The notes under the pieces: model-generated
The model's input: only the letters and a program-made list of their open reading frames with translations
Database searches by the model: none
What the model was told of the DNA's origin: nothing
Shown here: piece after piece, positions 20,811 through 56,541 of the stretch
How the letters are laid out: the number at the start of each line of letters is the position of its first letter
How positions within the stretch are numbered: position 1 is the stretch's first letter
Assembly: GCA_016932965.1 (NCBI GenBank)
Contig: JAFGBW010000103.1
Span: 1-64,000, forward strand
Source of the DNA: Candidatus Auribacterota bacterium
GTDB lineage: Bacteria; Auribacterota; JAFGBW01
DNA length: 64,000 nucleotides
Reading direction: 5' to 3'
Program-made: the position numbers and the translations under genes

Positions 20811-21146
20811 AATTAATCCGGTATATCACCGCCACAGGATTTGGACTAGCAAAGTTTGACAATTCCGTGAATGCTAAGAGGAATAATATCACCACAGAGA
20901 GGACACGGAGAGCACGGAGAAATCATCATTGTGAGTTTTGAGGGTTTAGTTATGAATTGAATTGATCGAATTTCATTTGAATTTTGAAATTCAACACCTA
21001 TAACTTTTTTTACCCTCCGTGCTCTCCGTGTCCTCTGTGGCAGAAAAAAAATGGAAATATTTTATACAGTATATTTCATTAAAATTGATCGCTTTGAGAG
21101 GTTCACATTTCAAGCCACCGGCTCTGCCGGTGGTAGTTGACTGCCC
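20811..21146 (+). mobile_element. Dispersed about 330-bp element, copy A
   Basis: The left end is AATTAATCCGGTATATCACC followed by TTTGGACTAG and TTTGACAATTCCG. An inner left arm CACCACAGAGAGGACACGGA (from 20889) is complementary to the right arm TCCGTGTCCTCTGTGG (to 21040), with a 7-bp-periodic core between. The right end has GCTTTGAG, a hairpin CCACCGGCTCTGCCGGTGG and TAGTTGACTG. Ends and arms recur in copies B to E. It has no ORF, so it would be non-autonomous: MITE-like, or IS200/IS605-derived judging by the hairpin. Confidence 0.7.
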
Positions 21147-21466
21147 CAGTAATAATTTATCCTGTCTAAAAAATTTATATTCCCATTCCTCTGCGCCTCA
21201 GCGTCTCTGCGGGAGTCCTTCTTTATCTTGCGGGCGTATGCGACCAGTTCCTTTCTCCGTGTTCTGTCGTGAAAAATAGATATAAATCCAATGAGTCAGT
21301 AGAAATGTTTGCTCTTTATTATGATCTCATGAAATGCTTAGATGAGGAGGGGGGTAATTTTATTTTTGCGTTACGGGAAAAATTTTGCTTTTTATATCAG
21401 CAAATGGATTCATTTTTAGTGATAGGTTAATAAATTCAAGAGACATTAACCCGGAAGGATCAGAAC
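21147..21466. other. Intergenic tail with a second repeat remnant
   Basis: About 320 bp before the arginine decarboxylase gene. CTCTGCGCCTCAGCGTCTCT (from 21189) and CTCCGTGTTCTGTCGTGAAA (from 21256) look like degraded arms of a related element. No gene is visible. A ribosome-binding site for the next gene is at about 21451. Confidence 0.5.
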
Positions 21467-22009
21467 ATGGTACCTAAAAAAATTTTTTTGACCAAAGGAG
21501 TTGGAGCACATAAGCATAAACTTCGGAGTTTCGAGCAGGCATTGAGGATGGCAGGTATTCAAGCGTGCAATTTAGTGCAGGTGTCCAGTATTTTTCCCCC
21601 GAAATGTAAACTCATCACCAGAAAAGTAGGATTAACCTGTCTCAAAGCTGGTGCTATCCAGCATGTGGTCATGGCCAGAAACGAAACCAATGAAGCCAAC
21701 CGCATGATTGCGGCATCGGTGGGGCTGTCCAAGCCCATTAAAAATAATGCGTACGGATATCTGAGCGAATACCATTCATTTGGGGAAAATGCCAAGATTG
21801 CAGGAGATTATGCTGAGGATCTGGCTGCAAGCATGCTGGCTGAAACATTGGGGCTTACCGGTTTTGACGCGGATATTGCCTGGGATTCCCGTAAGGAATT
21901 ATATAAAACCACAAAGGGATTTTTTACTTCCCGTAATGTCACGCAAACGGCGCGGGGTATCACAGGAAAATGGATTACGGTCATTGCGGCAGCGGTGCTG
22001 GTTATCTGA
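21467..22009 (+). CDS. pdaD: Pyruvoyl-dependent arginine decarboxylase
   Basis: This 180-residue proenzyme self-cleaves at the Ser-Ser pair (Ser40-Ser41 in NLVQVSSIFPPKC), producing a beta chain and a pyruvoyl-capped alpha chain. The flanking GVGAHKHKLRSFEQALRMAG and the later YLSEYHSFGENAKIAGDYAE are characteristic. The enzyme converts arginine to agmatine, either for polyamine synthesis or as part of acid or energy metabolism. A GGAAGG ribosome-binding site precedes the ATG. No agmatinase, agmatine deiminase or bona fide spermidine synthase is in view. Confidence 0.93.
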   Translation: MVPKKIFLTKGVGAHKHKLRSFEQALRMAGIQACNLVQVSSIFPPKCKLITRKVGLTCLKAGAIQHVVMARNETNEANRMIAASVGLSKPIKNNAYGYLSEYHSFGENAKIAGDYAEDLAASMLAETLGLTGFDADIAWDSRKELYKTTKGFFTSRNVTQTARGITGKWITVIAAAVLVI

Positions 22010-22054
22010 TTTGATAGAGTCAGGAAAAAGAACTGCCTCATTGGGGATGATGAA

Positions 22055-22128
22055 CACGCCCGACAGGATTTGAACCTGTGACCCACGGATTAGAAATCCG
22101 TTGCTCTATCCAACTGAGCTACGGGCGC
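22055..22128 (-). tRNA. tRNA-Arg (anticodon TCT)
   Basis: This 74-nt cloverleaf on the minus strand starts GCGCCCGTAGCTCAGTTGGA. The anticodon stem ACGGA/TCCGT encloses loop TTTCTAA, with anticodon TCT. The T arm contains GGTTCAAATCC and the acceptor closes with CGGGCGT plus discriminator G. CCA is not encoded. It stands alone, antisense to its neighbours. Confidence 0.95.
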
Positions 22129-22193
22129 AAGAGCTACATATACTGGCTGTATATTGAAATTGATGCAAGAATTTTTTTAATAAAGGAGAGAGT

Positions 22194-23522
22194 ATGTTCG
22201 GATGTCATCTGGGAAGAGTATTTCAATTAACGGTTGGCGGCGGATCTTATCAGGAGGGATTGACATCGGTGGTCATGGGATGCCCTCCCGGCATCATCTT
22301 GACAGAACAGGAAATCTATGGAGACTTGTTATTGAGGAAACCGGGTGCGGATGAGCTGTCTTCTCCAAGAAAAGAGCCGGATTTACCCGTGATTTATACA
22401 GGTTTGAATGCTGCTGACACCATCGAACATGCTGGAAATAAGCACCATACCAACGGAACGCCTGTTACCATTCTGATCCCGAATCTGGACCGTCATTTTA
22501 TTCACATCAAACAATATCAGGACACCAATCGGACACCTAGGCCTGGACATGCCTCTTATGCTTCTTTTATGAAGTACGGGCCAGATGATGACGCGGTGGG
22601 TGCCGGTATTTTCAGCGGGCGATACACCTCCACGATCGTTGCAGGGGGGTATGTGGCGAAAAAAATACTTGAGAAATGCGGCATCAGGGTTTTTGCCTAT
22701 ATAAAAGAAGCAGCCGGTGTCAAGGCAGATGATCTGGACATGGAAATGTCGTGGAAAAGGAACGCCGCGTATAAAGAGATGCGCCGTGATTTTGACCCGT
22801 TTTACCAGGAGATTTATGTTAAAACAAGGATCCATCCGGACATGCATTTCCTTGAGAAGATGAAGGTCTTTGCTGAAATAGAAAAGGAAATTGATGATAT
22901 CCGGGCTAAAACACCGCTGTTTGATCCTAAAAAAGTGGAAGAACAATATGGGATCAATCCGCTTCTGAACTGTCCTGATCTGGCTGCTGCAAAGGAAATG
23001 GTCAAAGCCATCAATAAAATCACGCATACCGGGGATTCAAGCGGAGGGGTCGTGGAAGTCATTGCTTTGGGAGTGCCGCCGGGTCTTGGCGAACCTGTTT
23101 TTGATAAATTGGATGCGGAATTAGGCAGGATGCTGGGTATTGGCGCTGTTAAAGCCGTAGAAGTGGGTGCCGGCCTTTCAGTCAAAGACTTGACCGGGAT
23201 TCAAAGTAATGATCAGATGCGTTCTGAAAAGGGGAAAGTCCTGTTTGATTCGAATAATGCCGGCGGAATCACAGGCGGTCTTGCCACAGGACAACCGATT
23301 TTAGTGCGTTTGGCAGTCAAACCGACTCCGACCATTGCCAAAAAACAGCACACCATTGATAAATATACCCTGGAAAACGTCGAATTGGCCGCTATCACAC
23401 GCCGGGACCCCACCATTGTTGCCCGTATCTGGCCAGTGGCGGAAAATTATACGGCACTGGTGCTTTTAGATCATCTGATGCTTCATTTTGGTTTCCAGAA
23501 AATCAAAGAAATGATCCGGTAG
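22194..23522 (+). CDS. Divergent chorismate synthase homologue
   Basis: This 442-residue protein is collinear with chorismate synthase (AroC). It keeps [11 protein letters not shown] with the His119 equivalent of the catalytic histidine, [36 protein letters not shown] and AVKPTPTI. However, the N-terminal GESHG motif is GGSYQ (Tyr19 for His). The RSSARET motif is IFSGRYT (Arg, Ser and Glu lost) and GRHDP is TRRDP (residues 402-406). AroC needs these residues for reduced FMN and EPSP chemistry, so this may be a paralogue with another reaction. An AAAGGAGAG ribosome-binding site precedes it and sufB starts 4 bp after it. Confidence 0.8.
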
Positions 23523-23526
23523 AAGA

Positions 23527-24957
23527 ATGTCCCCTCTTCATTCCATCAGCCAGGAAAAATACGGTTTTATTACTGACGTGGAATCCGATGAAGCTCCAAA
23601 AGGGTTGAATGAAGATATCATCCGTCTGATTTCTGTGAAAAAGAACGAGCCTCAATTCATGCTGGATTTCAGGCTCGATGCATTTCAAAAGTGGCTGTCC
23701 CTGCCGCTTCCCCAGTGGGCTAAAGTGAGCCATCCTGAAATAGATTTTCAATCTATCAAGTATTATTCAGCTCCCAGACAAAAAAACCAAAATCCTAAAG
23801 ATTTGACCGAAGTGGATAAGGAGATCCTTGAAACATTCGAGAAACTGGGGATCCCCTTGAGAGAACAGAAAAGACTTGCCGGAGTGGCAGTGGATGCAGT
23901 CTTTGACAGTATTTCTGTGGGGACAACCCATCAGGAAATGCTGGCAGAATATGGCATTATTTTTTGTTCCATCTCGGAAGCAGTCCATAAATATCCGGAC
24001 CTCATTAAAAAATATCTCGGCTCTGTTGTTCCGGTTACGGATAATTTTTACGCGGCATTGAACAGCGCCGTGTTCAGTGACGGATCGTTTTGCTATATCC
24101 CCAAAGGGGTTCGCTGCCCTGTGGATTTATCGACGTATTTCCGTATCAATGCATCGGAAACAGGACAATTTGAGAGAACGCTCATCATTGCCGAGGAAGG
24201 AAGCTACGTGAATTATCTGGAGGGGTGTACGGCTCCTATCCGGCATGAAAACCAGCTCCATGCGGCTGTTGTGGAACTCATCGCCATGGACCATGCGGAA
24301 ATCAAGTATTCCACGGTACAGAACTGGTATGCGGGCGATAAAAACGGTGTAGGAGGGATCTATAATTTTGTCACTAAGCGCGGTAAATGCGCAGGCAACT
24401 ATTCTAAAATTTCCTGGACCCAGGTGGAAGCCGGATCGGCCATTACCTGGAAATATCCGGGCTGCATCCTTTTGGGGGATCATTCGGTCGGTGCCTTTTA
24501 TTCGGTTGCTCTGACCAACAACCGGATGCAGGCTGATACAGGAACCAAGATGATCCATATCGGGAAGAACACCAAAAGCACCATCATTTCCAAGGGGATT
24601 TCAGCGGATGAATCATCAAACACCTATCGGGGCCTGATCAAGGTGCTTCCTTCTGCCGAAGGCGCCAGAGCTTATTCACAGTGCGATTCTCTGCTTGTGG
24701 GAGACCGATGCAGAGCCAATACATTTCCCTGCCTGGAAGTGGAAAATGATACGGGTGTGGTGGAGCATGAAGCCACGACCAGCCGCATGAATGAAGAGCA
24801 GATTTTTTATCTGCGGTCACGGGGAATTGATTCAGAAGGAGCGATTTCCCTTTTGGTGAACGGGTTTTGCAAGGAGGTGTTCCAGGAACTGCCTCTGGAA
24901 TTTTCCGTGGAAGCAGTGCGTCTTCTGGAAATGAAGCTGGAAGGCAGTATCGGGTGA
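23527..24957 (+). CDS. sufB: Fe-S cluster assembly scaffold SufB
   Basis: This 476-residue protein matches SufB over its length (E. coli SufB is 495). It contains [37 protein letters not shown], the [10 protein letters not shown] segment with the conserved cysteine and [20 protein letters not shown] with the conserved His. With SufC and SufD it forms the SufBC2D scaffold that assembles [4Fe-4S] clusters in the cytosol. It begins 4 bp after the chorismate-synthase-like gene, suggesting co-transcription. A dispersed element separates it from sufC. Confidence 0.96.
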
Positions 24958-24963
24958 AGTTTT

Positions 24964-25270
24964 AATTAATCCGGTAAACCACCACCATTGGTTTTGGACT
25001 AGTCAAGTTTGACAGATGAGTAAGTATTTTTAAAAAATTTTCACCACGAAGGGTAAAAAGAGTTATTGGTGTTGAGTTTACATTTTATTTATTAACTCAT
25101 GACTCAAAATTTTTCTCATTTTTTCGTGCTCTTCGTGTCCTTAGTGGTAAAATAAAAATATTTAACTAGAGAATAATATGAATGTTATGCCATATTCAGT
25201 GGCTTAATATGAGGAGGCTTTGAGCCGGGAATATTTTCAAGTCTTCACCTCTGGTGGAGATAACTGACTC
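24964..25270 (+). mobile_element. Dispersed element, copy B (between sufB and sufC)
   Basis: The left end AATTAATCCGGTAAACCACC followed by TTTTGGACTAGTCAAGTTTG is near identical to copy A. The arms TTTTCACCACGAAGG and CGTGCTCTTCGTGTCC are partly degraded. The right end has GCCATATTCAGTGGC, GGCTTTGAGCC, CACCTCTGGTGG and AACTGACTCAAAG. It begins 6 bp after the sufB stop codon. Confidence 0.7.
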
Positions 25271-25336
25271 AAAGCATAGGCCAGTACTTTCGGTAGGGCA
25301 TCCGAGGAGAGGAATTCGATAAGAAGGATCATCAAT

Positions 25337-26104
25337 ATGCTTGTCATAAATAATTTGAAAGTGAGTGTGAATGAAAAGCCGATTCTGGATTCCATCCGTC
25401 TTTCTGTCGGGAAAGGGGAGATTCACGCGATCATGGGCCCGAATGGTTCCGGCAAGAGCACACTGGCCAAGGTCATTGTGGGGCATCCGTTATGCAAGGT
25501 GACGGAAGGAAGCATGGAATATAACATCAATGGGCAAAGGATCAATTTATTGCCCCTGTCTCCGGAGGAAAGGGCGAGAGAAGGTATATTTCTGGCATTT
25601 CAGTATCCAATGGAAATACCGGGTGTGAGCAATGCCGTTTTCTTAAGGGCGGCGTATAATGAGATTCTCAAAAAAACAGGCCGTGAGGAAATGGATCCCA
25701 TGGATTTCAATATTTTCATAAAACAAAAAATGAAGGAATTGGATCTGGATGAATCTTTTATCAACCGTTTTGTGAATGTGGATTTTTCAGGGGGAGAAAA
25801 GAAGAGAAATGAGATACTTCAGATGGCGGTTCTTTCCCCCAGGCTTGTTTTTCTGGATGAAGTCGATTCCGGATTGGATGTGGATTCACTCAGGACAGTG
25901 GCTGACCGGATCAACCGTTTGAAAACCAAAGACAATGCATTAGTTCTGGTCACCCATTATCAACGGATACTCAATTACGTGGTTCCGGATTATGTTCATG
26001 TTCTCTCCAACGGCAGAATCATTAAAACGGGCGGAAAAGACCTGGCTTTATATATTGAGGAAAATGGATACGATACCATCAAAGAGGAGAAGAAAAGGGT
26101 ATGA
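25337..26104 (+). CDS. sufC: SUF system ATPase SufC
   Basis: This 255-residue soluble ABC ATPase has Walker A GPNGSGKST, a Q-loop region LAFQYPMEIPGVSN, signature FSGGEKKRNEI and Walker B LVFLDEVDSGLDVDSL (Val in place of the usual Thr). The H-loop is LVTHYQRIL. It powers rearrangement of the SufBC2D complex. An AAGAAGG ribosome-binding site precedes the ATG. The stop overlaps the next start by 4 bp (ATGA). Confidence 0.97.
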   Translation: MLVINNLKVSVNEKPILDSIRLSVGKGEIHAIMGPNGSGKSTLAKVIVGHPLCKVTEGSMEYNINGQRINLLPLSPEERAREGIFLAFQYPMEIPGVSNAVFLRAAYNEILKKTGREEMDPMDFNIFIKQKMKELDLDESFINRFVNVDFSGGEKKRNEILQMAVLSPRLVFLDEVDSGLDVDSLRTVADRINRLKTKDNALVLVTHYQRILNYVVPDYVHVLSNGRIIKTGGKDLALYIEENGYDTIKEEKKRV

Positions 26105-26616
26105 AAAAAACGGTATTATTTATTTTAACTGTTTTGATTGGATCGGCTGTCTCCACTTTTTCTTATTCAGAGGAGACGGTCGCCCAGTTGAAAGAAAAAA
26201 TCATTGATATCCAGAATGCGGGAGAACTGGGATTTCGCAATTTCACTCTCTGCACCAATATCATCGGATACGGCCAGTATGTGGCCGCTCCTGATAACAA
26301 GGTCAAAGCAGGATCGGAGATTTATTTTTACTACGAGCCGGTGAATTTGTTTACCAACCGCCTGAATCAATCCTATCAGATTTGGTATACACAGGATATG
26401 ATCATCCTTTCCCAGGACGGCAAGGAATTGTACCGGGCTTCCGATGCTTTGAATTTTAATTATCAGAGTCTGGCTCCTGTCATGGATATATATGCTTCGA
26501 ATACATTGAATCTGAAGGAAGTGCCTCCTGGAATATATCAGTTCCAGGCAGTCATTCATGATAAATTGAAAAAAAGGGATGCCACGTATTCTTTTGTTTT
26601 TGAAGTGGTTCCATGA
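26101..26616 (+). CDS. Secreted hypothetical protein inside the suf operon
   Basis: The 171-residue product begins with a signal peptide (MKKTVLFILTVLIGSAVSTF, probable cleavage after SYS). The mature part is predominantly beta (EIYFYYEPVNLFTNRLNQ, IPPGIYQFQAVIHD-like pattern, ending SFVFEVVP). I recognise no family, though the pattern suggests an immunoglobulin-like or lipocalin-like sandwich. It overlaps sufC by 4 bp and ends 13 bp before the chosen sufD start, so it is translationally embedded in the suf operon. A cytosolic Fe-S role is not expected for an exported protein. Confidence 0.75.
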   Translation: MKKTVLFILTVLIGSAVSTFSYSEETVAQLKEKIIDIQNAGELGFRNFTLCTNIIGYGQYVAAPDNKVKAGSEIYFYYEPVNLFTNRLNQSYQIWYTQDMIILSQDGKELYRASDALNFNYQSLAPVMDIYASNTLNLKEVPPGIYQFQAVIHDKLKKRDATYSFVFEVVP

Positions 26617-26629
26617 TGTTTCAGTGCCG

Positions 26630-27970
26630 ATGAATAAACAGGCTCATTCTTTGGGGATACCGGATGACTTTATCCGGTCTTATGAGGCAACCTGGCAGGA
26701 AGTTCTGGTTCCTGAATGGGTTCGTTCCTGCCGCTCTGAATCCCTGGAGCGTTTGAAAATGATGGGATTCCCTTCCAAGAAGTCTGAGGACTGGAAGTAT
26801 ACGGACCTGACCCCAATCGTGAACGGGGCCTTTCATTTTTCAAAAGAGCACAGTCTGCCTCAGAATTGCTGTTATAACAGGTTTCACGGTCTATCAGGCC
26901 AGGAAATCGAGCTGGTATTCATCAATGGTGTTTTTTCAAAAGAGATTTCCACCACGGCGAGATCTTTTCCCGGGATAAGAATACGAACGCTCAGGCAAGC
27001 AATGCTGGAAAACGACGGCATGCTGAAACAGTGTCTTGAAAGAATAAACCAGACCGGCGATTCTTTCAGCCTCCTCAATCAGGCTTTTTTTCAGGACGGG
27101 ATTTTCTTGGAAGTTGAAGCGGATTGCCGGTTTCAACCCTGGATTCATCTGGTCTTTTTTTCGACATCCAGTGATAATTTTTTTGCTTCTTTTCCTGCCA
27201 ATTTCCTCGTTGTCGGCCAGGGTGCATCAGTCAGGATTTTTGAAAGCTATGTTTCTTTTTCTCAGAATCAGTATTTCACGAACAGCATGACCTCCGTTTT
27301 TCTTGAGGAAGGCGCCTCATTGATGCTAGGCATTATTCAGGCGGAAAGTTTCCATTCCTTTCATATCTGTTCCACCAGAGTGATCCAGGAAAAACGATCC
27401 CGTTTTGATTCATTTTCTTTTCTGTTTGGAGGGGATATTGTCAGGCATAATCTGGATATCCTTCAGCAGGGCGAGCAAGCCCAGAGCTATTTAAACGGAC
27501 TTTACGCCCTGAAAGGACGGCAGCATTTTGATACGAAAGTCGTGATTGATCACCAGCGCACAGGCGGCATCAGCAGGCAGTTGTATAAAGGTATCCTGGG
27601 AGAAACGGCGCGGTCCGTTTTTAACGGACAAATTCATGTGCGTAAATCAGCCCAGAAAACGGATGCTTTTCAGTTGAATAAAAATTTGCTTTTGAACACC
27701 CGATGCCGTGTGGATACTAAGCCGCAGCTTGAAATTGAAACGGACGATGTCAAATGCAGCCATGGTGCTGCCGTCGGCCAATTAAATGAGGAAGAGTTGT
27801 TTTATTTGTTGAGCCGCGGAATATCCAGGTCTCAGGCAGTGGAGATCCTTCTTCATGGATTCGCCGACGAGGTTATCAGCAGACTTGAAAATGAGACCCA
27901 GCGTGAGATGATCCGAAATTTGCTGTCCGGGAATATTTTTTCAAAAATCAAAGTGGATTTGTTAAACTGA
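26630..27970 (+). CDS. sufD: Fe-S cluster assembly protein SufD
   Basis: From ATG 26630 the protein has 446 residues; the frame is open further upstream, but that would overlap the preceding gene and adds atypical sequence. It has the N-terminal FPSKKSEDWKYTDLTPI motif of SufD and the C-terminal beta-helix segment with KCSHGAAVGQLNEEELFYLL. It is the paralogous partner of SufB in the SufBC2D scaffold, needed for iron entry. The ribosome-binding site is weak, so translational coupling to the preceding gene is likely. Confidence 0.95.
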   Translation: MNKQAHSLGIPDDFIRSYEATWQEVLVPEWVRSCRSESLERLKMMGFPSKKSEDWKYTDLTPIVNGAFHFSKEHSLPQNCCYNRFHGLSGQEIELVFINGVFSKEISTTARSFPGIRIRTLRQAMLENDGMLKQCLERINQTGDSFSLLNQAFFQDGIFLEVEADCRFQPWIHLVFFSTSSDNFFASFPANFLVVGQGASVRIFESYVSFSQNQYFTNSMTSVFLEEGASLMLGIIQAESFHSFHICSTRVIQEKRSRFDSFSFLFGGDIVRHNLDILQQGEQAQSYLNGLYALKGRQHFDTKVVIDHQRTGGISRQLYKGILGETARSVFNGQIHVRKSAQKTDAFQLNKNLLLNTRCRVDTKPQLEIETDDVKCSHGAAVGQLNEEELFYLLSRGISRSQAVEILLHGFADEVISRLENETQREMIRNLLSGNIFSKIKVDLLN

Positions 27971-28043
27971 ATCGGGCATCATTTTTTGATTTATATTATG
28001 GACCCATTTAGAACAAGAATAGCTGCGATAGGATAGAGATCTC

Positions 28044-29719: not shown

Positions 29720-29748
29720 AAAAACCCGATCAATGATCGGGTTTTTTT
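29717..29748. terminator. Bidirectional intrinsic terminator
   Basis: ACCCGATC-AAT-GATCGGGT is flanked by seven A on the left and seven T on the right. It terminates the suf operon on the plus strand and the convergent coiled-coil gene on the minus strand. Confidence 0.93.
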
Positions 29749-29787
29749 ATTCAAACGGATTAAATCTGTCCGGGATGGGACAATAAA

Positions 29788-30447: not shown

Positions 30448-30587
30448 GGTTCAAACCTTTCTTGATATTTTAAAGTTCCCGATTGTTTCATTTTGTGATC
30501 TATACTTTATCTAATAAAAAATTATTCTTTTGTCCAAATAAAAAAAAGTTATTTATTATTATCTTAACACAAGGAGAACAGGTCATC

Positions 30588-31721: not shown

Positions 31722-31740
31722 ATCTGGAAGAATCAATAAA

Positions 31741-33874: not shown

Positions 33875-33945
33875 AATTGAGTGTAGATGGTTATATAATT
33901 AAAAAGTCGAGACTCTACCGACATTAATGAACCTGATGGGATTTC

Positions 33946-45517: not shown

Positions 45518-45653
45518 TCCGTGAAACCTTCCTGATCTGGAGAAACTGCTCCATAAACGTGCGGATGATCAGCCAGTCACTTGCGTGATGCAGAGGATGA
45601 GAGTGATATTTTTTCTTTTTTGAAATGATATTTCGTGCCATATTCAGATCCAT

Positions 45654-46962: not shown

Positions 46963-46983
46963 TTTTCACCACGAAGGATAGGG

Positions 46984-47685: not shown

Positions 47686-47694
47686 AACGGGATT

Positions 47695-48031
47695 TAATCC
47701 ATTAAAATACCGGCATAGCTTTTGGACTGGTGAAGTATGACAGTGGGAGGAAATTGTTAAAAAAATTGTTCACCACGGACACGGAAAGCACGGAGGATGA
47801 GAGTAAATTTTGGGTTGTGAGTTTTATGTTATGAGTTGAAATGATGAAATCATATTTTCTCTCATGATTTAATACTGAACACTTATCAGTCTTATTCTCC
47901 GTGCTTTCCGTGGTGAAAAAATAAATGATCAAATATGCACAACAATCATGCCACTTTAAGTGGCTTTATATAAGGCTTTGAGCCGAAACCGGTTAAACTT
48001 TTCACCTTTGATAGGGTGATTGTCCAACTTT
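47695..48031 (+). mobile_element. Dispersed element, copy C
   Basis: The left end TTTTGGACTGGTGAAGTATG is a variant of that in copies A and B. The arms TTCACCACGGACACGGAAAG (from 47769) and CTCCGTGCTTTCCGTGGTGA (to about 47917) are long and well matched. The core keeps TTGTGAG, TTTTATG, TTATGAG and TTGAAAT in a 7-bp period. The right end shows GCCACTTTAAGTGGC, GGCTTTGAGCC and TTCACC...GGGTGATTGTCC. Confidence 0.7.
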
Positions 48032-48117
48032 AGTGAATCTCAGGATTTGCTGGTTTCTGTTGCGAAGATGCAGATGAATCCTTAATATTCTTTTCAAGGA
48101 GTGATAAATACTCAATC

Positions 48118-50973
48118 ATGCGCAGATGGATTTATATTGTACTGCTTTTATTCTGTCTGTCCGGAGTCGCTTTTTTTTATCCTTCACTTGAAAAAGCCTG
48201 GTTCTATGTCCGGCTGGAATATCTGGATACTCCTCCGGAATGGTTCAAGGGAAAAGGGGATGGCGCGGTCAGCCTTGCTGAAGACTTTCTGAGTTCTTCC
48301 GAGAATGTTCAGAACATCAAGGGACTTGAATTATCGGTCCATCTTTCTTCCCCCCGGCTGGCTCCCCTGGTGATTCCTCTCATTAAGTCCGAAGACCGGG
48401 CGGTTTCAGAACTGGCTTTGACATCCTTAGGGAACATGGCATCGGCGGACCTTATCCCTCCTTTGTCCGCGATGGCTAAAACAACGGATATCCGGACCCG
48501 TCTGGGTGTATTACAGGCTTTGTCCCAAATCAAAACAGGAAAAGACCTCTCCGCGGTTCTGGCTGCATTTATGAATGACCATAGCTGGATTGTCCGCCTG
48601 GTTCTGTCTGATGAAATATTCTTTCATAAGGGAAAGGATACAGTCAGGGTGTTGAGGAGCCTGGTTTCCGATGATTATTTCGAAGTGGCTTTCAATGCGG
48701 CTTTAAATCTGGCTGAGATGGGTGAAGATAAGATTTTTTCCGATATTTTTTCCCATCTCAAAACTGATCAAAGCTGGATCGACCAGTTTAAAGCCATCCG
48801 GCTGATCACCCTTTTTCCGGAAAAACTGGTGAGTTACCTTGTGGCCCGTTATGTCGGAAACACCTATCCTTTTTTGGCCGTGGCAGCTCTTGAATGGATG
48901 ATGGTCAAAGGGGATGAAAGGGATTTTGCCCTGATTGTCAGGGAAACCAATGATAAACCGGAAGGGGTCGTCAAATCGGTTTCCCTGAAAGCATTGGCAC
49001 GACTGGCCCCCCTCACGACTAAAAAGGACCAGGTGATACTGACGCTCATGAAATTTTTACGTGTCAAGAATCAGGAAACCGTTGCAGCCGCATTGGAGGG
49101 CCTGAGGATATTGAAAGCCTCCATTGCCGGAACTGAAATATTGCCTTTCACGGAGAATGATTTTTTGGAATTGAGCGCTGAGGCCATTTTGACTCTGGGC
49201 TCTTTTGCAGATCCGAAATACCTTCCTGTTTTGATCAAGCAGATATTTAGCGAGCATTCGGTTCGCAGAAAGGCCGCCTATCTGGGATTATTGTATTATA
49301 ACGAATTGCCTTCTTCCCTGGACCTGAAGCAAATAAAAAACTGCGCCAATTGTGATGAGGTTGAATCGCTTGGACTGTTTTTATTGTTTCATGCCCCTTT
49401 AAAAGGAGGCGAGATTTTATTGAGCCAATACCGCTCTGCTGAAAATCAGGAAGTGAAAATAACAATTCTGGAACTCTTGTCCGTATTCAATGACAAGGTT
49501 ACCAATCTGGATCTGTTGAAATTGCTTTCCGCTCCTGAGATAACGAGCTGGGAAAAAGCCAAAAATATCATGGACCGTTCCCTCTTTAAACTGGATACTT
49601 CCGCTGTCATCGAGGGATTTTCCTTCTACCGAGGCCGTCAGGTTAAAGACGTTCAGTATTCGGTCTTTTCCTTTCAATCCGCTTCCGAATCCATCTGGAA
49701 TCAGAAGGATGTTCTCTATTTGAAAGGAGCTCAGGGGTCACAAGGGAAGGTGGAAGGTGTTCTATTGCATGAAGATGCGGGCTCTTACTACGTTTCAACT
49801 ACGATTGAAGAAGTGATCCAACTGGAAAAAAATCTTGTTTCGTCAACGCGTTTTTCCCTTTTATACGAATTATGGAAACTGAAGAAGAAACTGATTTTTT
49901 ATCAGGAATGGTTTGACGAGGCTTTGGAAAGAAAATTTTTTGATGCAGCGGGCTATCTTCTGCAGAAGGCGCTGGTCCGGATTGAAATATTGAACGCGGA
50001 AACTGCTCATCATCCTGTGACACGGGAGGCTTTGACTGAGATGCAGGAAGTCTGGAAAACCAATGCCCTCCGGTTCGAACAGCTTTTAAAGGAAACCAAT
50101 CAGGTCAGGTTTGCCGGCCGATATCTCACGCAAAATGAGGCGGTTGCCAGGGAACTAGAGGAGAAATTCAAAGGAGAGGCTGAAAAGAGGAAAAAACAGG
50201 CGGAAGAAATTTTCAGCCGGGGCCAGACACTCATGGAGTCGCAGGAATGGGAAAAAGCCATATCGAAATATAAACAAACGCTGGAGATATGGCCTTTTCA
50301 TTCTGAAGCCATGAAACAGATCGGAATCGCTTACGCCACTCTTGGGGAATATGACAAGGCGCTTTCATTTTATATGGAAATGAAAAAGAAATTTCCCAGT
50401 GATGTGAACGTCATGAACAGCATGTCACTTGTGTATCGTCTCAAGGAAGACAATGAAAACGCGTTGAAGTGTCTGACGCAGGAAATCGAGATTGACCCGT
50501 CTCTTTACCGGGGATATGAAGATGCATCAGATGTCCTGGTTAAAATGGACCGTCTTGACGATGCGGAAGAGCTTCTGGAAGCTGGGGTGAAAACCGTGAA
50601 GGATTCCCATTCCCTGTATTTCAAACTGGCTAAACTGGTTTTTAAGCAAAAGGAAATCGATAAGGCCTTGGAGTATCTTCAGATATGCCTGAAATTCAAA
50701 CCGGATTGGGTCGAAGCACTGACTTATCAGGGATATGTCTATTTTGCTGCCGGAAAAAATGAGGCGGCTGTTTCCATACTTAAAAAAGCCATAGCGTATG
50801 ATCTGGCCAATATCCCGGCACGTCTCACTCTCGCAGATGTTTATCAGAGCCTGGGTAAGACAAGGGAAGCTACGATGGAGTTAACCAAAGTGCTGGCAAT
50901 AGATCCCAATAATGAAGAGGCAAAAAGTATTCTCGATTCGATCTCGAACGAAGACAAGAGGAAAGGAAGATAG
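48118..50973 (+). CDS. Large HEAT-repeat/TPR protein, membrane anchored
   Basis: This 951-residue protein has an N-terminal signal anchor (WIYIVLLLFCLSGVAFFYPS). HEAT-like repeats span about residues 50-430 (VIPLIKSEDRAVSELALTSL, VLRSLVSDDYFEVAFNAALN). A linker and coiled-coil region follow at about 500-690, then six or so TPRs to the C-terminus (EWEKAISKYKQTLEIWPFHS, NEAAVSILKKAIAYDLANIP). No enzymatic domain is seen. It is probably a protein-interaction scaffold outside the inner membrane. An AAGGAG site lies about 15 bp before the start. Confidence 0.82.
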   Translation: MRRWIYIVLLLFCLSGVAFFYPSLEKAWFYVRLEYLDTPPEWFKGKGDGAVSLAEDFLSSSENVQNIKGLELSVHLSSPRLAPLVIPLIKSEDRAVSELALTSLGNMASADLIPPLSAMAKTTDIRTRLGVLQALSQIKTGKDLSAVLAAFMNDHSWIVRLVLSDEIFFHKGKDTVRVLRSLVSDDYFEVAFNAALNLAEMGEDKIFSDIFSHLKTDQSWIDQFKAIRLITLFPEKLVSYLVARYVGNTYPFLAVAALEWMMVKGDERDFALIVRETNDKPEGVVKSVSLKALARLAPLTTKKDQVILTLMKFLRVKNQETVAAALEGLRILKASIAGTEILPFTENDFLELSAEAILTLGSFADPKYLPVLIKQIFSEHSVRRKAAYLGLLYYNELPSSLDLKQIKNCANCDEVESLGLFLLFHAPLKGGEILLSQYRSAENQEVKITILELLSVFNDKVTNLDLLKLLSAPEITSWEKAKNIMDRSLFKLDTSAVIEGFSFYRGRQVKDVQYSVFSFQSASESIWNQKDVLYLKGAQGSQGKVEGVLLHEDAGSYYVSTTIEEVIQLEKNLVSSTRFSLLYELWKLKKKLIFYQEWFDEALERKFFDAAGYLLQKALVRIEILNAETAHHPVTREALTEMQEVWKTNALRFEQLLKETNQVRFAGRYLTQNEAVARELEEKFKGEAEKRKKQAEEIFSRGQTLMESQEWEKAISKYKQTLEIWPFHSEAMKQIGIAYATLGEYDKALSFYMEMKKKFPSDVNVMNSMSLVYRLKEDNENALKCLTQEIEIDPSLYRGYEDASDVLVKMDRLDDAEELLEAGVKTVKDSHSLYFKLAKLVFKQKEIDKALEYLQICLKFKPDWVEALTYQGYVYFAAGKNEAAVSILKKAIAYDLANIPARLTLADVYQSLGKTREATMELTKVLAIDPNNEEAKSILDSISNEDKRKGR

Positions 50974-50982
50974 GGGGATAAC

Positions 50983-51018
50983 AATTGAGAATTAAGAATT
51001 TAGAATTATGAATTGAGA
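50983..51018. repeat. AATTNRG heptad tract, five units
   Basis: Units AATTGAG, AATTAAG, AATTTAG, AATTATG and AATTGAG lie directly after the HEAT-TPR gene and before the next ribosome-binding site. The period is exact while positions 5 and 6 vary. Confidence 0.8.
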
Positions 51019-51039
51019 GCGGGGGAGGTATGTTCTTTC

Positions 51040-51945
51040 ATGAAACTATTTGACGGAGCCGTATTTAATAGCAATGGCATGAAGAGATTTTTTTATTTTT
51101 TTTTATTCTATTTGTTCAGTTTTATTGTGACAGCGGATGAGGCTGTTTGTGTTTTTGTCAGTATTTTGCCGCAGAAATATTTCGTGGAAAAAATCGGTCA
51201 AAAAAGGGTCAAAGTTTCCGTTCTGGTTCAACCGGGTTATGAGCCGCATTCATATGAGCCAAAGCCAAGGCAGATGATGGAACTGGCTGCTGCCAGGATC
51301 TATTTTGCTATTGGTTTTCCTTTCGAGCAGACCTGGCTGTCCAAGTTTCGGTCAGTCAATCCTTCCATGCTCATTGTACAAACAGATGAAGGGATCCGGA
51401 AAGTCCCTTCTGTCCATCACGAACAAGCAGGCGAAAAGGGGGAAAATGAAGTGTTGGATCCCCATATCTGGCTTTCTCCGGTTTTGGTCCGGAAACAGGC
51501 CTTAACGATCAAAAATGCGCTGATCAGAGCCGATCCTATGCATCAGGATCAATATGAATCCAATTTCAGACAATTTGACAATGAATTGAGCGGTTTACAC
51601 CAGGAATTCAAAAGGATTTTCAGCGAGGGTACATTAAAGAACAGGGCTTTTCTGGTCTATCATCCGTCATGGGGATATTTTGCCAGGGATTATCATTTGG
51701 ATCAGATCCCCATTGAACAGGAAGGCAAAGAGCCCAAGCCTCAATATCTGGAACAGCTGATCATCCGTTCCAGAACGCTCGGAATCAAGGTTGTTTTGAT
51801 CCAGCCTGAATATTCCGTGAAGATGGCGCAGACCATTGCTTCCGCGACCGGGGCGAAAGTGATTACAGCAGATGTCATGAGCGAAAATTGGGGTGAAAAT
51901 CTGAAAAAAGTGTCCCGGGAGTTACAAGCTGCTATGCAGGAATAA
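51040..51945 (+). CDS. ZnuA/TroA-type metal-binding receptor (cluster A-I)
   Basis: The given start follows a GGGGGAGG site and gives 301 residues; Met at 51079 would give a more standard signal peptide (FYFFLFYLFSFIVTA). Metal-ligand motifs of the family are visible: GYEPHSYEPKPRQM, LDPHIWLSP, VYHPSWGYFARDY and an acidic ligand in ITADVMSENWG. A short His/Glu loop (VHHEQAGEKGE) precedes the second ligand. It should bind zinc or manganese outside the membrane for an ABC importer. No permease or ATPase genes are adjacent. Confidence 0.9.
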   Translation: MKLFDGAVFNSNGMKRFFYFFLFYLFSFIVTADEAVCVFVSILPQKYFVEKIGQKRVKVSVLVQPGYEPHSYEPKPRQMMELAAARIYFAIGFPFEQTWLSKFRSVNPSMLIVQTDEGIRKVPSVHHEQAGEKGENEVLDPHIWLSPVLVRKQALTIKNALIRADPMHQDQYESNFRQFDNELSGLHQEFKRIFSEGTLKNRAFLVYHPSWGYFARDYHLDQIPIEQEGKEPKPQYLEQLIIRSRTLGIKVVLIQPEYSVKMAQTIASATGAKVITADVMSENWGENLKKVSRELQAAMQE

Positions 51946-51979
51946 GCTCCCGCTGATGAATCCAAGGACTAGGGAATGA

Positions 51980-52015
51980 GGGATGAACTCGCCGGCTTCA
52001 TCCCCCTTTGTTTGC
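51980..52015 (+). terminator. Intrinsic terminator after the metal-binding receptor
   Basis: GGGATGAA (51980-51987) pairs with TTCATCCC (51997-52004) across a 9-nt loop, followed by CCTTTGTTTG. The U-tract is interrupted. Confidence 0.65.
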
Positions 52016-52090
52016 AGCGGCGGAAGGGCTGAAAAAACAGTCCGGATGCATCTCAATTTTTATTGGTTTGTACACCCCGCCACGGATTTT

Positions 52091-52735
52091 TCATCCTGGA
52101 CCGCCTCGTGAGATACGCAGCAGATGGTTTTTCCATGAAATCCGTTTTTCCTTAGTCAGGCGATGGAGAAGCCGCGATAAGGTTTCAGGATTGGTGCCGA
52201 TGGCAGAGGACAGGTCTTTCTTGGAAATGGGAATGGAGTACAGGTCTTTCTTCCCGTATTGTTCCTCCAGGAAGCTGAAAAATCTGCCTTCCACGTCCCG
52301 GGCAGTCAGGTAAAGGATCCGTCTTGTCAGATAACGCTGTTTTTCCATAAGCATCCGGATGAATTCATTCCGGAATTTTTCCTGGTTCAACAGATGCCGG
52401 AATTTCATTTTAGGCAGGAAAAAGACAAAGCTTTCCTTCAGACATACAGCACTCACCGGATAATTTTCCTTTTCAAACAAGGTCACTTCGGCAAAGATTT
52501 CTCCGGGCTGGATCATCTTGATAACAGCCTCTTTTCCATCGGGTGTAGTTTTGTAAAGGCGGATGCTTCCTGAGGCCAGAAGAAACGCCCCGTTTCCTGA
52601 ATCCTCCTCCAGGAAAAGATGTCCGTTTTTTCTGAATTTTTTACCCATGCAGATGGAACTGAGCAATTGTTTGCTTTGTTCAGAAAGCCCGTCGAATAAC
52701 TCGACTTTTTTTAATATTTCATAGGCATTCATCAA
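52091..52735 (-). CDS. Crp/Fnr-family transcription regulator
   Basis: This 214-residue protein has an N-terminal cNMP-binding-type beta roll (GNGAFLLASGSIRLYKTTPD, MIQPGEIFAEVTLFE), a dimerisation helix and a C-terminal winged helix (SIPISKKDLSSAIGTNPETL, RLLHRLTKEKRIS). There is no N-terminal cysteine cluster like Fnr, so the signal could be haem-bound NO, redox or a nucleotide, as in HcpR/DNR-type members (inference). It is divergent from the ferredoxin-type gene, and an Fnr-like palindrome lies between them. Confidence 0.92.
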   Translation of the reverse strand: MMNAYEILKKVELFDGLSEQSKQLLSSICMGKKFRKNGHLFLEEDSGNGAFLLASGSIRLYKTTPDGKEAVIKMIQPGEIFAEVTLFEKENYPVSAVCLKESFVFFLPKMKFRHLLNQEKFRNEFIRMLMEKQRYLTRRILYLTARDVEGRFFSFLEEQYGKKDLYSIPISKKDLSSAIGTNPETLSRLLHRLTKEKRISWKNHLLRISRGGPG

Positions 52736-52746
52736 TCTTCGCTTTC

Positions 52747-52760
52747 TTGACCTGCATCAA
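52747..52760. promoter_or_regulatory. Fnr/Crp-type operator
   Basis: TTGACCTGCATCAA is a TTGA-N6-TCAA palindrome of the Crp/Fnr superfamily. Its centre (52753.5) lies about 41 bp before the transcription start predicted from the -10 at 52782, the classical class II activator position. Confidence 0.65.
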
Positions 52761-52781
52761 GGTTTATTCAATACCCGTTGT

Positions 52782-52787
52782 TATTAT
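52782..52787 (+). promoter_or_regulatory. -10 element for the ferredoxin-type gene
   Basis: TATTAT lies 27 bp before the ATG, with no good -35, as expected for an activator-dependent promoter. It sits at suitable distance from the upstream Fnr-like site. Confidence 0.45.
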
Positions 52788-52813
52788 ATAGAAATAGAAT
52801 GAGGAGAGAAATC

Positions 52814-53662
52814 ATGAAAAGAAAAATTATCCACATCGATGAAAACAAATGCACCGGATGCGGCGAATGTATTCCGGCTTGTCCTGAAGGAGCCATTCAG
52901 ATTATTGACGGTAAGGCCATTTTGGTCAGCGACCTTTTTTGCGACGGACTGGGTTCGTGCCTGGGCCATTGTCCTGAAGGAGCGATTCATGTTGAAGAAC
53001 GGGAGGCGGAAGCTTATGACGAGGAAAAAACCATGTCCAATATCGTCAAACAGGGAAAATCAGTCGTTCATGCCCATATCCAACATCTTAAAGAGCATGG
53101 TGATGAGGTCCATTTCCAGGAAGCGCTGAATTTTCTTAAACAGAATAAAATGGAGATTCCCCATGAGGAAAACATCCAGTTACAATCCCATTCGCATTCA
53201 GGCTGCCCCGGTTCCATGATGAAGGATTATTCCCAAAAGAAGGATGAAAGGCTCAAGGAAGATGGAAAACGAGGATCTCATTTGCTGCAATGGCCGGTTC
53301 AGATGCATCTGATCTCTCCTGCAGCGCCGTATTTTAAAAGGAAAGACCTCTTACTCGCCGCGGATTGTACCGCTTTTACCGTGGGTGATTTTCATAAGGA
53401 TTGCCTTCAGGGAAAGAGCCTCTGTATTGCCTGTCCTAAACTGGATTCCGGCCGGGAAATCTATATTGGAAAAATCCGGGAACTCATTGATGAGGCACAA
53501 ATCAATACCCTGACCGTCATGATCATGGAGGTTCCCTGCTGCGGAGGACTTCTTCAACTGGCCTTGGAAGCGGTCTCCAAGGCAAAAAGAAAGATTCCCA
53601 TTAAAGAAATCGTGGTTGGAATTCAGGGGGACATTCTGTCTGAAGACTGGGTGGGTACATGA
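52814..53662 (+). CDS. 2x[4Fe-4S] ferredoxin-type protein, Crp/Fnr-associated family
   Basis: ATG 52814 follows a GAGGAGA site and gives 282 residues; a longer open frame upstream lacks this signal. The N-terminal half binds two [4Fe-4S] clusters (CTGCGECIPACPEGA and CDGLGSCLGHCPEGA). A His-rich linker (HEENIQLQSHSHSGCPGS) follows. The C-terminal domain carries LLLAADCTAFTVGDFH, CIACPKLDS and MEVPCCGG, a conserved pattern in anaerobes next to Crp/Fnr-type regulators. It probably acts in electron transfer or nitrosative/oxidative defence; the reaction is not known to me. Confidence 0.85.
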   Translation: MKRKIIHIDENKCTGCGECIPACPEGAIQIIDGKAILVSDLFCDGLGSCLGHCPEGAIHVEEREAEAYDEEKTMSNIVKQGKSVVHAHIQHLKEHGDEVHFQEALNFLKQNKMEIPHEENIQLQSHSHSGCPGSMMKDYSQKKDERLKEDGKRGSHLLQWPVQMHLISPAAPYFKRKDLLLAADCTAFTVGDFHKDCLQGKSLCIACPKLDSGREIYIGKIRELIDEAQINTLTVMIMEVPCCGGLLQLALEAVSKAKRKIPIKEIVVGIQGDILSEDWVGT

Positions 53663-53670
53663 AAACAATG

Positions 53671-53776
53671 AATTAATCCGGTAAACCACCCCAAGAGGAT
53701 TTGAACCAGCCAAGTTGTTTGACAATTCCGGAAATTTTAAAAAAGAAATAATTTCATCACAGAGAACACAGAGATT
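53671..53776 (+). mobile_element. Dispersed element, partial copy D (left half)
   Basis: AATTAATCCGGTAAACCACC, GGATTTGAACCAGCCAAGTT and TTTGACAATTCCGG match the left end of copies A and B. A first arm ATCACAGAGAACACAGAG follows and then homology stops. The rest of the roughly 325-bp gap to the next gene contains no gene I can see. Confidence 0.6.
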
Positions 53777-53987
53777 TATAAAACAAATCTTCTGATTCCT
53801 TTAATTGCCTTCAGTATATTTACTTCTTATCCGTTTGAGGCTTTCATTTATCATGGCGGTATTTTATTCTCATGGCCCCATTTTTTCTCAATAAAGAACA
53901 GCTTCTTTTGATCTGGAATGAAATTGTGCTTGAATCTTTCTTCTGCGCAGGTTAAATTCTCTTTAAATCATGAATCTTGGAAGAAGC

Positions 53988-54401
53988 ATGAAACAAAAAA
54001 TTTTAATCCTGGAAGAGGATCCGTCGCTTCGCTATCTGTTGAAGATGCATCTGGAAGCCGCTGAATATGAAGTCACGGTTGCGTCTCATTTGTCTGAATG
54101 CCTGAATGTATGCAAAAGTATCAAACCCGTGCTGATATTAATGGAACTGCGGAGTACGGATAAATCTTTTTCAGCTTTTTTCCCCGAAATCAAAAACAAT
54201 CCTTCCATCTATGGAATCCCTGTTATCGTGGGTATTACCACGAATGAGGAAAGTGAGTTCATCGCCTCTTATTTGAAGGTAAAAGGAGAAATTGATTCCG
54301 TATTTAGAAAACCTTTTGAGTTTGAAGATCTGAACCGGGAGGTAACAAAGCTTCTTACAGGTGTCAGGGGTAGGACACAAACGGGCACAGGTAAAAAATA
54401 G
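53988..54401 (+). CDS. Receiver-domain protein with Glu at the phosphorylation site
   Basis: The ATG at 53988 follows GGAAG and gives 137 residues consisting of one CheY-like receiver. The acidic pocket (LEEDPS), the switch Thr (GITTN) and the lysine of FRKPF are present. The acceptor strand reads PVLILMEL, with Glu53 where phospho-Asp is expected. Such a domain cannot be phosphorylated normally and may mimic the active state. No histidine kinase is nearby. It is followed 68 bp later by a CheX-like gene. Confidence 0.82.
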   Translation: MKQKILILEEDPSLRYLLKMHLEAAEYEVTVASHLSECLNVCKSIKPVLILMELRSTDKSFSAFFPEIKNNPSIYGIPVIVGITTNEESEFIASYLKVKGEIDSVFRKPFEFEDLNREVTKLLTGVRGRTQTGTGKK

Positions 54402-54469
54402 TCAGATAGCTTAACCGGAAAAGATATATTCTCCACATAACGATACGCCGGATAAGGGGTCAGGAAGAC

Positions 54470-55321
54470 ATGGATATTAAATTTTTCGGCCAGTATTTAT
54501 TGGAAAAAAACATCATTACTAAAGTCCAGCTTCTGGAGGCAATCACACTCCAGACCAATACCAATATTTCTTTGCCCATTCTCGCTGTCAAATTGGGTTA
54601 TATCGACAAGTCCGCTCATGATAAGATCCAGCAATATCAGATCAGAAATAATCTGAGCTTCATCGAGGCAGCCAAACAACTGCAACTTATCTCTTCTGAA
54701 AAACTCGAACATCTCATTGCGAGACAAGTTTCCAATAATATCCTTCTGGGAGAAGCCCTTGTCAGAAAAAATATTCTTTCCCAGGAACAGGTTGACGAGC
54801 ATTTCCGCCGTTTCAGGACAGAACAGTCTGCACTGGAACTGGAAATATTGAGTTCCATCTCATCCCACCACTATGGAGATATCATCGGTGCGTCGCTGCA
54901 GTCTTCCGTGAATCTGTTCCGTTACGCCATGGATGTTCAGCCCAGGATCGGGGCTTTTTATACCCATACTAGCAGCAGCTCTGATCAATACCCCTGGGTT
55001 GCTTTTCAGTCTCTGCAGGGAGATTATAATTTCACCTTTCATCTTTATGTGACTGAACCGCTTATATGTCAGATAGCTTCCTCACTGGTTCAAAGAAGGG
55101 TGGATGATATCAATGAATTGTCTCTGGATGCCATGAAGGAATTTGTCAATACCATTGTCGGATATATCTGCACCACGCTTTCCATTAAAAATATAAAGGA
55201 AGAACCGACGCTGCCTGAAATCGAACGAACGGAAAAAATGATCAAAACGAATGAAATGGTAAAATTGGTGCTGCGTTTTCCTGAAGAAGTCGTTGAAATA
55301 GGGATCATCTTTCACGAGTAA
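54470..55321 (+). CDS. MshEN-like plus CheX/CheC-like phosphatase-domain protein
   Basis: This 283-residue protein starts with GspE-N/MshEN-type repeats (FGQYLLEKNIITKVQLLEAI, LGEALVRKNILSQEQVDEHF), a fold that in some ATPases binds c-di-GMP. The C-terminal 150 residues resemble CheX/CheC/FliY phosphatases, with the ExxN catalytic pair at Glu224 and Asn227 (KEFVNTIVGYICTTLS). CheX-type proteins dephosphorylate receivers. Its placement next to a receiver protein supports a signalling pair, although that receiver lacks its Asp. Confidence 0.7.
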   Translation: MDIKFFGQYLLEKNIITKVQLLEAITLQTNTNISLPILAVKLGYIDKSAHDKIQQYQIRNNLSFIEAAKQLQLISSEKLEHLIARQVSNNILLGEALVRKNILSQEQVDEHFRRFRTEQSALELEILSSISSHHYGDIIGASLQSSVNLFRYAMDVQPRIGAFYTHTSSSSDQYPWVAFQSLQGDYNFTFHLYVTEPLICQIASSLVQRRVDDINELSLDAMKEFVNTIVGYICTTLSIKNIKEEPTLPEIERTEKMIKTNEMVKLVLRFPEEVVEIGIIFHE

Positions 55322-55325
55322 TTGA

Positions 55326-55555
55326 GTGTCAAATAAAAAAGTTTATCACGGAGGACACGAAGGAATTTAAGTTATGAGTTGGAATGATGAGATTTTAACT
55401 CACAACTGACACTCAAAACTCTTTTTATCCTCTGTGGTAAAAAATTTTATCAACAGAATTTATCATTGATCATGCCACTTTGAGTGGTGTTATCCATGTG
55501 GTTTGAGCTGATAACTATTTTCAATCCTCTGGCTCTGGCGGAAGTAACTGACTTG
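55326..55555 (+). mobile_element. Dispersed element, copy E (arms and right end)
   Basis: It starts at the first arm (TATCACGGAGGACACGAAGG), has the core GTTATGAGTTGGAATGATGA and second arm TCCTCTGTGGTAAAA. The right end shows GCCACTTTGAGTGG, GGTTTGAGCTG, CCTCTGGCTCTGGCGG and AACTGACTTGAG. The left end is missing. It reaches to within about 12 bp of the next gene's TTG start. Confidence 0.65.
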
Positions 55556-55566
55556 AGATCTGTAAG

Positions 55567-56538
55567 TTGATATTTGAAGATTATTATAGCAATCTCCTTC
55601 ATCATTGCGCTCTTTGTCCCAGGCAGTGCCACGCTGATCGGTTTTCTTCAAAATTGGGTTATTGCAACACGGGGGCGGTCTTTCCTGTTTCCTCGATCTG
55701 CCTTCATCATGGTGAAGAACCGGTCATTTCCGGAAAAAGAGGCATCTGTAATATTTTTTTCAGTCATTGCAATCTCCAGTGCCGTTATTGCCAGAATTAT
55801 CAGATCAGCAGCAATGTCATTGGGGTTGGCCCAATAGTGTTGGAATTGGAGGAAATCATTACGCAACTGGAGGTGCATTTAAAAAATAAGATTACCCGAA
55901 TCGGGTTTGTTTCGCCGTCCCATGTTCTGCCTCAGGTGGAAATCATCATGAAGAGGCTGCGTGAAAGGAATTGGAATCCCGTTTTTGTCTATAATACGAA
56001 CGGCTATGACAGGAGTGAACAGATACGGTCCCTGGAAGGGCGGATCCAGGTTTATCTGCCTGACCTCAAATATACGGATGGATCTGTCTCCAAAGCCTAT
56101 TCGGATGCAGCCGATTATCCTTTTTATGCGAAAGAGGCCATTAAAGAGATGTTTCGTCAAAAAGGGAGTGAAATCATTCTGGATGAACAAGGAGAAATTT
56201 TATCAGGCTTGATCATTCGCCATCTGGTTATTCCCGGGCAGGTTGAAAACAGTATAGCCTGCCTTCGTTTCATTGCAGAGGAACTTTCCCCTGATGTGTC
56301 AGTTTCCCTCATGTCCCAGTATCATCCGGTGCCGGCCACGATCAAACACAGATGTCTTGGAAGGACTCTCAACAAAGAAGAATATGCCCAAGTCAGGCAT
56401 GAGCTTGAAAAACTGGGAATGCAAAACGGCTGGATCCAGGAATTGGAAAGTTCCGCCTATTATTTTCCTGATTTCAACCGGCCCCATCCGTTTGAAGAAA
56501 AAAATCACCACGGAGGACGCGGAGAGCACGGAGAATAA
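55567..56538 (+). CDS. PflA-like radical SAM protein (COG1313 type)
   Basis: This 323-residue protein has an N-terminal CALCPRQC motif and the radical SAM CX3CX2C in SHCNLQCRYCQNYQ. Barrel motifs follow (VFVYNTNGYDR, VYLPDLKYTDG). It belongs to the group annotated as putative pyruvate formate-lyase 1-activating enzyme homologues, some of which accompany AMMECR1/Memo proteins. No such partner is adjacent. The start is TTG, close to the end of copy E. The last codons (EKNHHGGRGEHGE) are encoded by a fragment of the element's arm, so both termini appear altered by repeats. Confidence 0.85.
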   Translation: MIFEDYYSNLLHHCALCPRQCHADRFSSKLGYCNTGAVFPVSSICLHHGEEPVISGKRGICNIFFSHCNLQCRYCQNYQISSNVIGVGPIVLELEEIITQLEVHLKNKITRIGFVSPSHVLPQVEIIMKRLRERNWNPVFVYNTNGYDRSEQIRSLEGRIQVYLPDLKYTDGSVSKAYSDAADYPFYAKEAIKEMFRQKGSEIILDEQGEILSGLIIRHLVIPGQVENSIACLRFIAEELSPDVSVSLMSQYHPVPATIKHRCLGRTLNKEEYAQVRHELEKLGMQNGWIQELESSAYYFPDFNRPHPFEEKNHHGGRGEHGE

Positions 56539-56541
56539 GAG
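56502..56541 (+). repeat. Element arm fragment forming the 3' end of a gene
   Basis: AATCACCACGGAGGACGCGG followed by AGAGCACGGAGAATAAGAG matches the left arm of the dispersed element. It is read in frame as the C-terminus of the radical SAM protein and reaches the stop codon. Confidence 0.65.

Follow-up and report, generated by a model that had tools for sequence, protein, structure and literature searches.

The question raised by the stretch analysed here, 64,000 nucleotides (nt) of contig JAFGBW010000103.1 from Candidatus Auribacterota bacterium (hereafter the window), is where the short hairpin repeats scattered between its protein genes come from and what spreads them. A full copy of these elements consists of a left end, an arm of iteron-like units, a core, an inverse arm and a right end with small hairpins. 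The outer arms are of a kind that brackets GxxExxY genes in the same genome, in its phylum and in Bacteroidota, namely inverted iteron-like arrays with about three units of 6-7 bp placed every 9-10 bp. Unit type agrees between the paired arms and goes with the lineage of the protein, and arm-only copies are dispersed in other genomes, where their presence differs between relatives. GxxExxY (TIGR04256/PF13366) is a PD-(D/E)XK nuclease with a RecB/Cas4-type layout. The answer that we favour, and regard as reasonably probable, is that the repeats of the window derive from GxxExxY and S23/IVP cassettes, being nested and without a gene, and would be spread in trans by the nuclease. The association of the arms with GxxExxY is strong, and their mobilisation is what we infer.

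The arms themselves are highly regular. In the copies of the source genome they are built of CACGGAG-type units, three per arm and one every 9 bp, this period being the peak in all 13 outer arms scored. Of 80 loci read, 71 repeat one pair of variable letters in each of the three units of the 5' arm, and the inverse arm, where found, is of the same type as its partner in 43 of 46 (17.5 expected from the margins), with arm types concordant in 28 of 38 copies of the source genome. Since unit types agree within an arm, between arms and in these latter copies, the arms evolve as a matched pair. The same design surrounds GxxExxY genes, which are encoded between arms lying 374 and 431 nt apart at two loci (L121 and L162, respectively) and begin directly after an arm at two others (L115 and L140). 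When an arm pair was called at a score of at least 30 within 220 nt of the gene, it was present at 50 of 56 GxxExxY genes in the phylum and at none of 105 other open reading frames (ORFs) from the same loci, the median scores being 41 and 18. These arms enclose the small gene alone, mostly within about 130 nt; their period ranges from 8 to 11 bp with a mode of 9, and their units vary (CACAGAG, CGCAAAG, CGCGGAT, CACAGAT, ACAGGAT, CGCCAAG and others), the two arms of a gene still matching each other. The source genome contains five PF13366 matches, one intact (L230, with arms of the CGCAGAG type) and four decayed, all of them adjoining arm-like repeats, and at L233 a GxxExxY remnant immediately follows CACCACGAAGAGCACGAAGGACACGAAG. 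The window elements have the arms of such cassettes (about three units, a period of 8-11 bp, matched type) and lack the gene: no GxxExxY or IVP gene or remnant was found inside the window, which explains why the partner was overlooked in the original prediction, made from these letters.

The GxxExxY proteins retain an intact active site. Across 90 of them, E27, D67 and K79 (numbering of the L230 protein) are present in 90/90 and E77 in 85/90, with D in 4, and Q91 and Y95 complete the layout D..ExK..QxxxY. This layout is common to Cas4/RecB-type nucleases, and Cas4 profiles match GxxExxY weakly; GxxExxY differs from Cas4 in standing alone between iteron-like arms and not in a CRISPR locus. One report notes a GxxExxY call where another tool assigned cas4 (PMC8934634). 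A sequence search against solved structures returned nothing significant for GxxExxY, an AlphaFold model from two sequences was too poor for use (pLDDT 52), and no GxxExxY was found in phage records with a single query.

Further evidence for the association comes from the phylogeny. When 55 GxxExxY proteins from 12 host families were placed on a tree, with arms classed by a simple rule and unclassed rows omitted, arm class required 7 changes over 39 labelled rows (17.7 when shuffled, minimum 12), whereas host family required 36 against 39 shuffled; addition of Bacteroides gave 8 changes for arm class over 58 rows, against 23.8. A label-free Mantel test yielded r=0.41 for GxxExxY and r=0.24 for IVP (both p<=0.001). 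Because arm class tracks the protein tree and host family does not, the gene moves between hosts carrying its arm type along. At one Bacteroides locus (L399, genome G058) a GxxExxY gene has a left arm that mixes CACAGAG with CACAGAT units, as though arm types could perhaps switch unit by unit.

The arms are also the part that the window elements share with distant genomes. A left-end query against 38 other genomes of the phylum matched only the arm part and a few adjoining bases. Homology restricted to the arms had been named in the original prediction as grounds for abandoning the element family; such a restriction does exist between genomes, whereas within the source genome the ends recur too, and it is informative because the arms are a cross-phylum module to which the ends are local additions. 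The arm pattern CACCACRRAGGACACRRAGAGCACRRAG occurs in at least 118 stretches from at least ten bacterial groups, as named in the record titles: Chloroflexota, Planctomycetota, Desulfobacterota, Verrucomicrobiota, Beta-, Gamma- and Zetaproteobacteria, Acidobacteriota, Bacteroidota, Spirochaetota, Sumerlaeota and Lentisphaerota. A literature search for the arm string or its cousins gave no relevant match. In other genomes (L093, L095, L096 and L101), periodic inverted motifs of a different kind (CGCGGATT.. and CACGGATT..) lie inside or beside CACGGAG arms, so that nesting of cassette arms seems common.

A second gene family probably accounts for the cores. The function of S23/IVP proteins has been unassigned since they were first seen in 23S rRNA insertions (PMC4990558). 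Inverted arms bracket 32 of 40 genes for these four-helix proteins (PF05635), and 46 of 60 such arms have a 7-bp period. The intervening sequence (IVS) of Coxiella carries tandem heptamers (GACAGAT) ahead of its S23p ORF (PMC4990558), as the 7-bp arms of these IVP cassettes do, and is an independent case of the 7-bp rule. Periodic tracts in the element loci of the source genome peak at 7 (87 against 1 shuffled) and at 9 (63 against 1), two counts that are not independent, as the loci overlap in part. It is thus likely that core tracts with the 7-bp rhythm derive from arms of S23/IVP cassettes. Several element cores of this genome (L005, L012, L014, L018, L030) contain an inserted third module of about 80 nt (GACTCGAAGCC..GGCGAAGAGGGACG..TTGAGTCGCC..GCAAGGGCAAGGGCA..GATGCCCGCAGTCC), found also within L231, and its hosts include one decayed GxxExxY gene. 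An alternative core (GAATTGAGAATTGAGAATGGGAA..GGCGGACGCCTG..ATTTGAGATTTGAAATTTGTCATTTGAGATTCATCATGCCTTAAGGCATGATGA), with a 7-bp rhythm and small palindromes of its own, takes the place of the usual one at L003, L004, L021 and L024.

Bacteroides nordii repeats the window design independently, in another phylum. Its one GxxExxY gene occupies the same site, next to radA, as that of B. finegoldii (L338), and beyond it there are more than 40 arm matches; many of the copies read lack a gene, have common local flanks and contain a further inverted pair inside, built of another unit type. These copies and the gene-less composite of the window indicate that copies spread without the gene. Among 60 Bacteroides genomes, all 6 with a G-type GxxExxY gene were arm-rich, against 10 of the other 54 (p=1.6e-4, relatedness being ignored), where arm-rich means 4 or more matches, a cut-off chosen after the data were seen, and the counts are lower bounds. 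Sites with and without an arm pair could be compared in this genus. The arm-only copy L154:6476-6563 is absent in the sister species G058, where the same two genes are adjacent, and another occurs in G088 (L428, about 94 nt between the aligned flanks) where G065 has about 13 nt instead, the flanks being 91-93% identical and no target duplication being visible at the site. These empty sites fit the gain of an arm pair, loss being also possible.

The source assembly (3.14 Mb in 300 contigs, about 93% complete, the window being part of contig 169) gives the extent of the family at home. The original prediction had described a dispersed non-autonomous element family and proposed repeat clustering across the genome as its check, and this description held: copy B (below) as query gave 63 matches, and hidden Markov models (HMMs) of the two ends located the left end at 54 places on 40 contigs and the right end at 42 places on 32 contigs, far beyond chance. 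Thirty-three left ends are paired with a right end in the order given above, mostly with a gap of 80-215 nt. The copies are nearly all intergenic and lack an ORF, no overlap of more than 60 nt with one being seen in 41 of 44 elements with readable neighbours. The left end and its neighbouring gene are separated by a median of 35 nt, and in 30 of 44 elements this gene is oriented towards the element (p=0.02).

Inside the window, copies A to C, half copies D and E and the arm remnants were all present within a few bases of the positions first proposed; features are on the forward strand unless stated otherwise. Copy A starts with the genome-specific left-end module (20808..20889), detected by HMM and BLAST, which is followed by a 5' arm of iteron-like units with a 9-bp period (CACCACAGAGAGGACACGGAGAGCACGGAG; 20890..20919), 96% complementary to the 3' arm, a core with an inner inverted tract and a weak 7-bp rhythm (20920..21014; best period 7 bp, 0.50), the 3' or inverse arm (21015..21040) and a right end with small hairpins (CCACCGGCTCTGCCGGTGG; 21041..21146). 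Just behind it, on the reverse strand, lies a half-arm remnant (21189..21212) whose CGCAGAG units are of the same type as those flanking the intact GxxExxY gene of this genome. Copy B has a left end (24961..25041), a shortened 5' arm of the CGAAG type (25042..25051), a 3' arm of the CTTCG type that matches it (GA/GA; 25123..25147) and a right end (25148..25274), and copy C a left end (47693..47770), a 5' arm (47771..47795), a 3' arm (47897..47915) and a right end (47916..48031). Half copy D (53670..53773) is a left end with a CAGAG-type 5' arm and without the inverse arm, and half copy E (55345..55555) comprises an arm, a core with an inner palindromic tract, the inverse arm and the right end; an arm remnant (CACCACGAAGG; 46967..46977) and a lone 5' arm (CACCACGGAGGACGCGGAGAGCACGGAG; 56506..56533) complete the set. 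The termini had to be redrawn: aligned copies begin with TTTTAATTAATCCGG and finish with ..GGTATTTGACT or ..AACTGACT, so that TTTGGACTAGTCAAG is internal to the left end by about 25 nt and does not form its terminus. The arm-core-arm hairpins of copies A and C fold far better than shuffled sequences (z -9.4 and -8.7). None of the repeats matched a known Rfam family, one tRNA being the sole RNA match in the window, which contains no rRNA; its copies sit between protein genes and not in 23S rRNA.

How a nuclease could drive such repeats can be pictured as follows. The GxxExxY protein would bind the units as arrays and cut at the arm pair or close to it, and the segment bounded by the arms would then be copied into intergenic sites through repair or replication by the host. 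Gene-less copies may be served in trans, much as RAYT is believed to serve REPINs, and lineage-specific flanks, here the left and right ends, would be picked up and amplified together with the arms. The window family would have been amplified locally, arms, inner arms and local ends moving as one, and the protein serving it could be now decayed, encoded in the unassembled part, or that of L230.

Several observations weigh against this explanation. In the source genome, at its present completeness, no intact GxxExxY gene bearing exact CACGGAG arms together with the window ends was found, the nearest being L230 with its CGCAGAG arms and the decayed copies. Three Bacteroides genomes (G065, G087 and G088) are strongly arm-rich without a GxxExxY match. 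No movement was observed, and the occupied and empty sites compared are those of Bacteroides. The search for inner arms of the window cores by local alignment failed, period statistics being used instead, and single window cores give just a weak 7-bp signal, which leaves the nested derivation likely and not proven. To our knowledge, moreover, a nuclease by itself is not a known transposase.

In the best of the alternatives, still an unlikely one, an unrecognised ordinary transposase, of the DDE or another type, mobilises the arms and the GxxExxY and IVP genes are passengers that happen to lie between them. The short, intergenic, ORF-less anatomy with inverted arms is indeed that of miniature inverted-repeat transposable elements (MITEs), which are likewise dispersed in many copies, and in B. 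nordii GxxExxY is single-copy and the arm copies many. The original prediction had seen a resemblance to IS200/IS605 ends and suggested looking for a transposase gene with matching ends. The search was for Y1 transposases (PF01797), nothing being sought beyond them, DDE families included, and it gave no match in the source genome and positive results in 5 of 14 control genomes, so that neither an IS200/IS605 nor a RAYT partner was found; genes sharing the arms do exist, in the form of the GxxExxY cassettes, and the relatives recovered were these and the IVP cassettes. Kinship with IS200/IS605 is therefore not upheld: small hairpins near an end are common to both, but IS200/IS605 elements have a Y1 transposase and subterminal hairpins, lack terminal inverted repeats and are not characterised by long inverted arms of iteron units. 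Passenger genes, moreover, would not be expected to show an arm unit that tracks the GxxExxY lineage across hosts, or to be enclosed so tightly and alone. From MITEs the window elements seem to differ in that their apparent partner is a nuclease and not a known transposase. The Bacteroides site with aligned flanks showed no target duplication.

It is even less probable that the hairpins are RNA elements recruited by the host, such as 3' untranslated region stabilisers, terminators or processing sites, with selection on the stem causing covariation and spread being incidental. Strong stems, covarying arms and the frequent location of the left end just behind an inward-pointing gene would suit this proposal; however, the orientation bias is weak, being opposite in 14 of 44, no terminator-like sites were found at copies A and B in the stretch scanned, and the cross-phylum units, the period and the link to the GxxExxY lineage are left unexplained. 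An equally improbable proposal makes the arms operators that autoregulate GxxExxY and IVP genes and the dispersed copies relics of decayed cassettes without mobilisation in trans, and, although decayed genes between or beside arms exist and iteron-like arrays look like regulator sites, it conflicts with the mirroring of the arms on both sides of the gene, with the dozens of B. nordii arm matches, many around a common non-genic core, for one gene, and with the amplification of the window family as a gene-less composite.

Derivation from nuclease cassettes with spread in trans, our preferred explanation, has its closest known counterpart in the REPIN/RAYT system, in which repeats are linked to a single-copy gene that is itself flanked by them (PMC3116915). 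In both cases the repeated unit is a pair of short inverted repeats, intergenic and present many times per genome, and the repeat type goes with the protein. RAYT, however, is a Y1/HUH transposase, whereas here the gene encodes a PD-(D/E)XK nuclease, the genome has no Y1 gene and iteron-like arrays with a spacing of 9-10 bp make up the repeats. The 23S rRNA IVS with its S23p/IVP ORF is likewise a small element with inverted ends around a gene for a four-helix protein, but it sits in 23S rRNA, whereas ordinary genes surround the IVP cassettes found here and the window elements are ORF-less. We found no description of arms around GxxExxY in the open literature, which leaves most subscription journals aside.

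It is tempting to speculate, at somewhat less than even chances, that the GxxExxY and the S23/IVP cassettes together form an undescribed class of minimal mobile elements that crosses phyla and has two branches, the cassettes nesting in one another and seeding families of gene-less hairpins. On this view each cassette has one small gene between inverted iteron-like arrays, spaced by a rule that the protein family sets: about 9-10 bp in the nuclease branch and 7 bp in that of the four-helix protein. Since the arrays around each gene mirror one another, consist of its own unit and keep a fixed period, binding and cutting are concretely testable. GxxExxY is named for its motif only, and the open literature mentions it rarely and in passing. 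If the two-branch proposal is true, two very common orphan gene families would acquire a role and a large share of the intergenic repeats of environmental bacteria would be explained. Should the protein prove to bind its arms and cut them, an origin would be at hand for a widespread class of intergenic hairpins, and a nuclease would join the Y1 transposases as a driver of bacterial miniature repeats.

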